Assembly: GCA_025455865.1 (NCBI GenBank)
Contig: JALOLS010000001.1
Location: 1-54,633 of the forward strand
Origin: Thermoleophilia bacterium
GTDB taxonomy: Bacteria; Actinomycetota; Thermoleophilia; Miltoncostaeales; Miltoncostaeaceae
Reading direction: 5' to 3'
DNA: 54,633 bases
Shown: one piece after another, positions 14,318 through 17,518 of the stretch
Layout of the letters: each line of letters opens with the position of its first letter
How positions within the stretch are numbered: the stretch's first letter is position 1
Notes under the pieces: generated by a model
Seen by the model: only the letters and a program-made list of their open reading frames with translations
What the model was told of the DNA's origin: nothing
Databases searched by the model: none
Made by a program: the position numbers and the translations under genes

Positions 14318-14892
14318 CCGGGCCCCCCGGCACCCAGGCGCCAGACCGTCACCGCGGTGTCACCGTAGTGGCGGGTGATGCGCTCGGCGATGGGCAGGTT
14401 GATCTCCAGGGGCTCGGGCGTCGGCCCGCCCCGCGCGCGCGCATGTTCCACGCAGATCGTCGCCCCGGGGGCCACGATGGGGGCGATCGCGCTCGCGAGC
14501 GGGCCCGCGATCCGCGGCAGGAGGCTATACGGGGGGTCGATGAGGCACAAGTCGTACCGCCGCCCGGCCGCGGCCTCGGCCGCGAGCGCCGCCCGCCAGT
14601 CGCGGGCGGCGACCCGCGCCCGCGCCTCCAGCCCGAGGGCCGCGAGGTTGCGCCGGCACACCGCGGCGGCGCGGGCCGAGGACTCGACCAGCAGCGCATC
14701 CCCCGCTCCGCGGGAGAGCGCCTCGATCGCCAGGGCCCCGGAGCCGGCGAAGAGGTCGATGACCCGCTCGCCCTCCAGCGGCCCGACGATCGCGAAGAGC
14801 GCCTCGCGCACCCGATCCGACGTCGGGCGGGTGTCCCGCCCGGGCGGGGCCTCGATCCGCCGGCCGCGGAGCCCCCCGGCCACCACCCTCAT
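14314..14892 (-). CDS. rsmD: 16S rRNA (guanine-966-N2)-methyltransferase
   Basis: Methylates G966 of 16S rRNA using SAM. The 192-residue product has the N-terminal MRVVAGGLRGRRIEAPPG, TRPTSDRVREALF, the SAM loop VIDLFAGSGALAIEALSRGA and the catalytic DPPY in LIDPPYSLLP. The ATG overlaps the recG stop (ATGA), and its own stop overlaps coaD. Confidence 0.96.
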   Translation of the reverse strand: MRVVAGGLRGRRIEAPPGRDTRPTSDRVREALFAIVGPLEGERVIDLFAGSGALAIEALSRGAGDALLVESSARAAAVCRRNLAALGLEARARVAARDWRAALAAEAAAGRRYDLCLIDPPYSLLPRIAGPLASAIAPIVAPGATICVEHARARGGPTPEPLEINLPIAERITRHYGDTAVTVWRLGAGGPG

Positions 14893-17069
14893 CCGTCGAG
14901 GAGGCGCGGCAGGTCGGTGAAGAGCGCGAGCACCGCCCGGCGCAGCAGCAGGTGCTCGGGCCCGGTCAGGTGCGGATCACGCTGGAGCGTCCACGCCGCC
15001 ACGCGCCGGGCCTGCGCGAGCTCGCGCCGGTCGCGCCCCAGGCGCGCGTGGCGCAGGTCGGTGGGGCCCGCCTGGCGCAGGCCGAGGATGCTGCCCTCGC
15101 CGCGGATCTCCAGGTCCAGCTCGGCCAGGCGGAAGCCGTCGGTGGTCTGGGCGACGGCCTCCAGGCGGCGGACCCCGTCCTCGGTGGCCGGATCGGCGAA
15201 GAGCAGGCAGAGCCCCGGGTGGCCGCCGCGCCCGACCCGCCCGCGCAGCTGGTGCAGCTGGGCCAGGCCGAAGCGGTCGGCCCCCTCGATCAGCATGACG
15301 GTGGCGTTGGGGACGTCGATGCCCACCTCGACCACGGTGGTGGCGACCAGCACGTCGGTGTCGCCGGCGGCGAACGCCCGCATCGCCTCCCGCCGCTCGT
15401 CGGGGCGCTGGGCGCCGTGGGCGAGCCCGACCCGGAAGGCGGCGAGCGGCCCCGCGCGCAGGCGGTCGGCCTCGCGGACGGCCGAGCGGGCCTCCCCCCC
15501 CGCCCCCTCGCCCTCCACCAGCGGGCAGATGACGTAGGCCTGCCGGCCGGCCCGGAGCTCGGCGCGCAGCTCGTCGTAGGCGTCCTCGCGCCCGGCCTCG
15601 CGCACCCACCGGGTGGCCACCGGCTCGCGCCCCGGGGGGCGGCCGCGGATGGTCGACACCCGCAGGTCGCCGTAGGCGGTCAACGCGAGGGTGCGCGGGA
15701 TCGGGGTCGCGGTCATGTAGAGCAGGTGGGCGGCCTCCCCCTCCGGCCCCGAGGCCCGGTCGGCCAGGGCCTGGCGCTGCTCGACCCCGAAGCGGTGCTG
15801 CTCGTCGACCACCACCAGCCCCAGCCGGTGGAAGCCCACCCCCTCACTCAGCAGCGCCTGGGTGCCGACCGCGACCTCCCCGGTGCCGGTCCGGAGGGCC
15901 AGCTCGCGCCGCTCCCGCTCACCCCTGGGCACGCTGCCGGTCACGAGCACCGGGCGGATGCCGGCGGGCCCGAGCACCGCGTCGAGGGTCCGCAGGTGCT
16001 GCTCGGCGAGCGTCTCGGTGGGCACCAGGAGCGCCGCCTGGGCGCCCGCCTCCACCGCCTGGCACATCGCGAGCGCCGCGACCACCGTCTTGCCCGACCC
16101 CACCTCGCCCTGCAGCAGCCGGCGCATCGGGGCCGGCTGGGCGAGGTCCCGGGCGATCTCGGCCACCACCCGGCGCTGCTCGCGGGTGAGGGTGAAGGGC
16201 AGCGCCTCCAGGAGCGGGCCGGAGCGCGCCCCGGTGCCGGCGAGCGGCGCCGCCCGGCGCCGGGTCGCCTCCGAGCGGCGCACGGCGGCCAGGCCGAGCT
16301 GGAGGACCAGGAGCTCCTCGAGCACCAGCCGCCGCCGGCCCCCGCGGTGCTCGGCGGCCGAGCGGGGGAAGTGGACCGCCACCAGCGCGTCGGCCGCCCC
16401 GGGCAGGCCGAGCCGCTCGCGGATCCAGGCCGGCAGGGGCTCGAGGGCCGCGCGGGCGTCGGGCCGGGCCAGGTCCACCAGCTCGCGCACCCGGCGCGCC
16501 GGAAACCCCTCGGTGGCCGGGTAGACCGGCACCAGCCCCTGGGTGTGCACCCCCTCCGACCCGGCGCCGCCCAGGACCTCGTGCGCCTTCACGCCGATCT
16601 GCCGCTCGGGGCGCACCGACACCCTGCCGCGCAGGAGCAGCCGGTCCCCCGGATGGAGCACCTGGAGGAGGTACTCCTGGTTGAACCACACCGCGCTGAT
16701 CGATCCGGTCTCGTCGTGCACCCGGGCGCGCACGATCACGAGGCCGCGCCGGCGGGTCGGCCGGAGCGAGATGCGGTCGAGCACCACCCGCACCGTCGCC
16801 TCCTCCCCGTCGGCGAGGTCCGCGAGCGGCCGGGCCTGCTCGTAGGCCAGGTAGCGCGTGGGCGTGTGGTGCAGCAGGTCGCCGACGGTGCGGATGCCGA
16901 GCCCCGCGGCCCGCGCGGCCGCGGCCCGCCCGACCCCCGGGAGCGCCGTGATGGGCTCATCGAGGCGCTCGGGCGCCGGCCGGTGGGGCGGCGGGGGGGC
17001 GTCCCAGCGCGCGGAACGGGCGTCGCCGAACGGCGGGATCGGCACCTCGTCGACCGCGGGTGTGGTCAC
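14889..17069 (-). CDS. recG: ATP-dependent DNA helicase RecG
   Basis: Superfamily 2 translocase that remodels stalled replication forks and Holliday junctions. Seen: a helix-hairpin-helix-like start (ITALPGVGRAAAARAAGLG) and the OB-fold wedge (about 90-180). The helicase core has LLQGEVGSGKTVVAALA, VVDEQHRFGVEQR, TATPIPRTLALTAYGDL, VATTVVEVGIDVPNATVM and QLRGRVGRGG. Length is 726 residues. GTG start. First gene of the recG-rsmD-coaD run; its upstream region carries the large palindrome shared with divergent rpmB. Confidence 0.97.
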   Translation of the reverse strand: MTTPAVDEVPIPPFGDARSARWDAPPPPHRPAPERLDEPITALPGVGRAAAARAAGLGIRTVGDLLHHTPTRYLAYEQARPLADLADGEEATVRVVLDRISLRPTRRRGLVIVRARVHDETGSISAVWFNQEYLLQVLHPGDRLLLRGRVSVRPERQIGVKAHEVLGGAGSEGVHTQGLVPVYPATEGFPARRVRELVDLARPDARAALEPLPAWIRERLGLPGAADALVAVHFPRSAAEHRGGRRRLVLEELLVLQLGLAAVRRSEATRRRAAPLAGTGARSGPLLEALPFTLTREQRRVVAEIARDLAQPAPMRRLLQGEVGSGKTVVAALAMCQAVEAGAQAALLVPTETLAEQHLRTLDAVLGPAGIRPVLVTGSVPRGERERRELALRTGTGEVAVGTQALLSEGVGFHRLGLVVVDEQHRFGVEQRQALADRASGPEGEAAHLLYMTATPIPRTLALTAYGDLRVSTIRGRPPGREPVATRWVREAGREDAYDELRAELRAGRQAYVICPLVEGEGAGGEARSAVREADRLRAGPLAAFRVGLAHGAQRPDERREAMRAFAAGDTDVLVATTVVEVGIDVPNATVMLIEGADRFGLAQLHQLRGRVGRGGHPGLCLLFADPATEDGVRRLEAVAQTTDGFRLAELDLEIRGEGSILGLRQAGPTDLRHARLGRDRRELAQARRVAAWTLQRDPHLTGPEHLLLRRAVLALFTDLPRLLDG

Positions 17070-17109
17070 GGGCGCCCCGGCGTGGCATCATCCGCGGGTC
17101 GCGGCCTGA

Positions 17110-17270
17110 GGGCCTGTCCAAGAATCCGGCCGCACCTCCGGCGGCTGCATCCCGGCGCCTGTCGGCACCCCCGGAACGGGACGTACCACCAGTACGCCCC
17201 ATGTCCTGCGGTCGCCGACATGCTTGGGATCCGCACCCCGGAGGCACAGCCTCCGTTCCTGGTCAGTCCC
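17110..17270. repeat. Long interrupted palindrome between recG and rpmB
   Basis: The region folds back on itself around CACCA at 17187-17191. Paired blocks, outside to inside: GGG 17110-17112 with CCC 17268-17270; CTG 17114-17116 with CAG 17264-17266; CCA 17118-17120 with TGG 17260-17262; GAA 17122-17124 with TTC 17256-17258; CCTCCGG 17135-17141 with CCGGAGG 17238-17244; ATCCC 17149-17153 with GGGAT 17226-17230; TGTCGGC 17160-17166 with GCCGACA 17214-17220; GGG 17178-17180 with CCC 17198-17200; CGTAC 17182-17186 with GTACG 17192-17196. Unpaired spacers on the two sides are nearly equal in length. Two small extra hairpins follow on the rpmB side (17239-17255 and 17275-17289). It may be a mobile palindromic element, a bidirectional regulator, or the leader of rpmB. 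Confidence 0.65.
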
Positions 17271-17317
17271 CTGAGTCGCCGCAGGCGACGACGAGCGATC
17301 TCCCGACGGAGGACCGA

Positions 17318-17518
17318 ATGGCGAAGGTCTGCACCGTCTGCGGCAAGGGTCCGCAGTTCGGCAACCACCGCTCCCACTCGATGCGAGCGGAGAGCCGGCG
17401 CTTCGACCCCAACGTGCAGAAGGTCCGCATCCTGGTGGGCGGCACGCCCACCCGCGCCTACGTCTGCACCCGCTGCCTCAAGGGCGGCAAGGTCCAGAAG
17501 GCCGTCTCCGGCTCGTAG
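17318..17518 (+). CDS. rpmB: 50S ribosomal protein L28
   Basis: Large-subunit protein of 66 residues. MAKVCTVCGKGPQFGNHRSH and the later YVCTRCLKGGKVQ give two CXXC pairs (residues 5-8 and 50-53), so this is the zinc-binding C+ form. The ATG has GGAGG 6 bases upstream. It is the one plus-strand housekeeping gene in the first 35 kb, divergent from recG and convergent with ribH. Confidence 0.97.
   Translation: MAKVCTVCGKGPQFGNHRSHSMRAESRRFDPNVQKVRILVGGTPTRAYVCTRCLKGGKVQKAVSGS

Follow-up and report, generated by a model that had tools for sequence, protein, structure and literature searches.

The ERIC repeat of enterobacteria is an imperfect palindrome. It is a 127-bp repeat resembling the miniature inverted-repeat transposable elements (MITEs), short and mostly intergenic, present in tens to hundreds of copies depending on the taxon, and found in more than one genus (PMC10969869, PMC2759123). 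Insertion sequences (ISs) are regarded as the main source of MITEs, whose transcripts often fold (PMC10969869). The IS-like MITEs Correia/NEMIS, RUP, Nezha and YPAL are non-coding, have terminal inverted repeats and transcripts that fold, and are believed to be mobilised by transposases recognising those ends (PMC3733652, PMC10969869). Here we analysed a 54,633-nucleotide stretch of DNA (the window) from a Thermoleophilia bacterium (GCA_025455865.1, contig JALOLS010000001.1, positions 1 to 54,633), in which a 161-bp interrupted palindrome (17110..17270) lies between recG and rpmB. This palindrome is very probably a non-coding, MITE-type insertion of about 160 bp that is moved in trans and carries a structured core under selection. 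Compared by description only, ERIC is its closest analogue in form (PMC10969869), sharing its short length, imperfect palindrome, mostly intergenic position, taxon-dependent copy number and occurrence in several genera. However, the present element differs in its YTAR-like 4-bp target duplications, in genome-specific ends that match several IS families, and in belonging to another phylum.

Folding of 17100-17280 yielded a single long hairpin on either strand, at -116.2 kcal/mol for the minus strand (z -7.8) and -95.4 kcal/mol for the plus strand (z -4.9), and on neither strand did any of 200 dinucleotide shuffles fold as well. The better-folding minus strand, which is also the strand of our covariance models, is hereafter called the sense strand. 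The extent of the element, traced by folding, BLAST and covariance-model searches, agrees to the base with the interval given in a preliminary description of this DNA, for the element sits between two direct repeats of CTGA (17106..17109 and 17271..17274), both read directly. Its terminal inverted repeats are GGGCCTGTCCAAGAA on the plus strand (17110..17124) and GGGACTGACCAGGAA on the minus strand (17256..17270).

A BLAST search with the window segment gave 46 matches in its own genome. A covariance model (R1) built from 20 full own-genome copies also gave 46, corresponding to about 38 distinct places, the surplus coming from palindromes matched on both strands. Inverted ends GGGCCTGTCCAtGAA delimit the copies, most of which measure 163-165 bp in model coordinates. 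Over 31 copies, 4-bp target duplications were significant in a shuffle test (z 4.7); signals of 2 and 3 bp at shifted offsets were parts of the same 4-bp match, and longer lengths gave nothing. The duplicated targets include CTAG, TTAG, CTGA, TTAT and TCAA, of which the first three are YTAR-like.

Comparison of 30 rpmB loci of the family, the window's own included, revealed the element at the window's locus only. At the 29 others, recG and rpmB are likewise divergent and lie an estimated 62-93 bp apart. Here the gap between recG (14889..17069, minus strand; Pfam RecG_wedge, DEAD, Helicase_C and RecG_dom3_C) and rpmB (17318..17518, plus strand; ribosomal protein L28, Pfam Ribosomal_L28) is 248 bp, and subtraction of the element and one duplication (165 bp) leaves 83 bp. 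The element is thus short, non-coding, dispersed and multicopy, with terminal inverted repeats and a target-site duplication, and it is a MITE in these core features. Much of the preliminary description is borne out by these results: the palindrome is real and survived the shuffle control on both strands, the model searches of the whole genome place a single copy on this contig, the suggested check for extra copies found the dispersed places, and the proposal of a mobile hairpin element agrees with the inverted ends, the duplications and the element-free loci of the 29 relatives.

In contrast to an ordinary MITE, whose ends define the element and whose middle is free, the element departs in having a conserved middle. 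Among 20 own-genome copies, 92.6% of cells pair and 24 of 62 pairs vary at both positions; no shuffle reached this. Outside its own genome, R1 found 36 further matches in four genomes of two other genera. When copies from these genomes were aligned with those of the own genome, 34 of 43 pairs changed on both sides, and the covariation score was 0.575, compared with 0.066-0.112 when partners were slid. Prediction of the structure from this very alignment gives it some advantage over the slid versions, but the gap is large. The core contains fixed boxes, GCGAA on the 5' side and TGCAGCCG on the 3' side. In the window copy, the 5' box reads GTGCGGATCCC on the sense strand (17226..17236, minus strand; class consensus GAGCGAA...) and lies on one side of a conserved internal loop, the opposite side of which is formed by the 3' box GGGATGCAGCCGCC (17140..17153, minus strand; class consensus TGCAGCCG). 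Two further fixed boxes, GGACGCAGG and CCGAGGAC, flank a central hairpin (GGCGTACTGGTGGTACGTCC on the sense strand of the window copy, 17179..17198, minus strand), whose sequence varies between genomes but stays paired. The regularly placed mismatched spacers noted earlier are real, but they represent internal loops conserved within a structure that covaries strongly, and not the traces of a decayed perfect palindrome.

To survey the class, which judging from recG neighbours is probably Thermoleophilia, we searched 399 sampled genomes with a second covariance model (R2) at E <= 0.001 and found matches in 193 genomes and 79 of 128 genera. The R2 E-values are rough owing to a shortened calibration, so that weak single matches are untrustworthy; in strong matches the conserved boxes are present. 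More complete scans of 15 selected genomes gave 1 to 108 matches per genome, an upper estimate of places in that the two strands of a palindrome may count twice, with assembly breaks at elements acting in the opposite direction. Element length is nearly constant across the class at about 160 bp, and one element lies in a named Solirubrobacterales metagenome-assembled genome (L148). Such a family can be found by structure only: BLAST from the window copy was convincing in its own genome alone, and gave only chance-looking matches elsewhere in the family. The literature searched, which left out most subscription journals, contained no account of elements like these in the class. The family appears to be undescribed yet common, about half of the genomes sampled from this major bacterial class having it. 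Plasmid and phage collections gave no match. In IMG/VR, one contig classed as viral carries a full element (L351, IMGVR_UViG_3300026300_000009), and may be a misclassified host contig.

The ends behave differently from the core. Across the class, mean pairwise identity reaches 0.71-0.72 in the core, whereas for the outermost 20 bases of either end it is 0.44-0.45. Internal sequence free to vary, a usual feature of MITEs that not all authors require, is thus not found here; the core is conserved and the ends differ. Elements end in GGGCCTGTCCATGAA in the window genome, GTGTCCTGAGTCAGAA in genome G017, GTGTCCCGATTCGG in G019, GGAGCCTGTCGAAGAA in G018, and GAACTCGTTTCAGAA or CAGGCTGCTGAAGAA in G107. 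A DDE_Tnp_1 search in 17 genomes yielded ISs whose ends were compared with those of the elements over 15 bases. The IS5 ends of G018 and G019 match the window-genome elements at 13 of 15 positions, and an IS1182-like IS of G107, flanked by the 4-bp repeats CTAG/CTAG and TTAA/TTAA, matches that genome's own elements at 14 of 15 (12 of 15 at its second end). Furthermore, IS1182 of G121 matches an element of G018 at 13 of 15, and IS1634 of G121 matches the elements of G017 at 11 of 15. All pairings other than these gave 2-9 of 15. The pairs were chosen after the scan, which makes the shuffle values optimistic; the matches sit at the very ends of the ISs. With the core shared and four end types matching IS ends, the ends appear to follow the available transposases. 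Exchange by recombination, or drift under selection, may account for their differences. IS5 (NF033580) and IS1182 (NF033551) match the elements in their ends and in their YTAR-like targets, but carry a transposase, whereas the elements carry none and hold the structured core. A pattern search for paired ends about 1 kb apart gave nothing usable. Inside the IS5 ends of one G018 locus (L334, 1207-2292), the front half of an IS5 transposase (DUF4096, DDE_Tnp_1) and the C-terminal domain of a TnpB nuclease (PF07282) are encoded as a fusion by a single open reading frame.

We further examined the arms by aligning each copy with its reverse complement under a scoring scheme that takes no account of wobble pairing. 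At positions 20-40 of the class set, the sense-strand arms contain 35 G-T versus 5 A-C mismatches, and those of G107 contain 36 versus 1. Model-found copies may be biased toward wobble pairs, a bias from which BLAST-found copies are free; among the latter in the own genome, positions 20-82 show 36 G-T versus 8 A-C distinct events. This excess appears to fit selection on one folded strand, either RNA or single-stranded DNA, rather than on a double-stranded cruciform. For copies flanked by co-directional genes, the sense strand runs antisense to those genes in 36 cases versus 20 (p 0.04, with gene calls by a crude script). Read-through mRNA is therefore not an obvious explanation.

The position of the element between two divergent starts, together with its better-than-chance fold, had suggested a structured leader by which L28 regulates its own synthesis, or a two-way regulator of recG and rpmB. 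A conserved L28 leader is refuted by the lack of the element at the other 29 rpmB loci of the family, and this lack, together with the copies spread over the genome, disposes of both proposals as the origin of the element. The better-folding strand is, besides, antisense to rpmB, and we give this alternative next to no credence. The preliminary description had also called the structure REP-like. Repetitive extragenic palindromic sequences (REPs) and REPINs, moved as single-stranded DNA by the Y1 tyrosine transposase RAYT, are dispersed imperfect hairpins with conserved unpaired bases, as these elements are, and would explain the strand-specific fold and the high copy number. However, REPs carry GTAG at one end and make no target duplication. 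The elements have 4-bp target duplications and terminal inverted repeats, their ends match DDE-type ISs, a GTAG tag is not among their features, and at about 160 bp they are far longer than REPs of 20-40 bp (PMC3733652). Judged by length, ends and target duplications, the term in its strict REP/RAYT sense is not supported, and such an origin is very unlikely.

An ordinary decayed deletion derivative of an IS, with a neutral middle and a palindrome that is a by-product of origin, would accord with the presumed descent of MITEs and their often folding transcripts (PMC10969869). Yet a neutral middle should not retain length, loops and pairing from genus to genus when the ends diverge; copying from arm to arm could mimic covariation, but not conserved mismatches. 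We thus regard this origin as improbable. The class-wide conservation of the core and its strand-specific fold would also suit a structured RNA or DNA site that serves the host, for example in nucleoid binding or mRNA stability, and that was spread by transposition and kept by its hosts. Against such a role, the position at rpmB is not conserved, many genomes show no match and the remainder vary widely in number, and the sense strand is more often antisense to co-directional genes by the crude gene calls. We consider a host function unlikely.

For a MITE-type insertion with a selected core, we propose the following model. Repeated insertion with duplication of 4-bp YTAR-like targets is evident from the dispersed copies with terminal inverted repeats, as are the conserved fold and the IS-like ends; the mechanism behind them is putative. 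DDE transposases of ISs would recognise the element ends and move the element in trans, and element lineages would have changed their ends to follow different IS families (IS5, IS1182 and IS1634). Meanwhile, one strand would be selected to fold as single-stranded RNA or DNA, which would serve the spread or survival of the element and not rpmB. In the broader form of this model, to which we assign slightly less than an even chance, a class-wide selfish element would be defined by a folded core of about 100 nucleotides under selection on a single strand (RNA or single-stranded DNA), and its terminal repeats would have been replaced repeatedly to use transposases of different IS families.

Several points weigh against the MITE-type reading. 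Mobility is read from sequence, no movement having been observed. Among the four IS matches, the element and the matching IS share a genome in G107 only, and the ends could have drifted rather than been exchanged. Searches with PF01609, PF13586 and PF13546 found no DDE_Tnp_1, DDE_Tnp_1_2 or DDE_5 transposase in the genome of the window; because these three families are absent from the assembly, the mobiliser of the window copy would be extinct, unassembled or of another family. In addition, G017 and G019 lack the G-T excess at positions 20-40, and outside the own genome several sets show no such excess, or the reverse, in the central core, because the conserved loops there supply A-C cells.

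Correia/NEMIS, RUP, Nezha and YPAL differ from the present family in that its class-conserved part is the core and not the ends. A core kept while the ends follow different transposases would change what defines a MITE, and raises the question of which factor recognises the conserved loops. On the practical side, draft-genome contigs of the class often break at these hairpins. Several contigs of genomes G000, G017 and G284 start or stop inside elements, so that copy numbers may be underestimated. Core-only matches in G284 and G016, considered as larger elements, proved to be copies cut by contig ends.

The window element matched no Rfam 15 family at gathering score, and eight other copies at a permissive threshold gave just the cspA neighbour of one copy and chance hits. 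In 36 of 56 element loci, a coding-sequence stop is predicted within 6 bp of an element end, sometimes with the start of the next gene at the other end. YTAR targets contain stop codons, and target choice, chance framing and purifying selection may each explain this. Within the window genome, three copies from two subfamilies (L007, L008 and L028) share one type of additional hairpin, about 28 bases long, at a single internal site. At a locus of G000 (L068, contig C130), two elements of different subfamilies lie head to tail at 292-454 and 457-619 and share TTAG, as if one had inserted into the target duplication of the other. Finally, a copy on contig C79 of G000 (L084, 102-264) combines a 5' arm and a 3' arm from different subfamilies and is therefore a recombinant or the product of a template switch.
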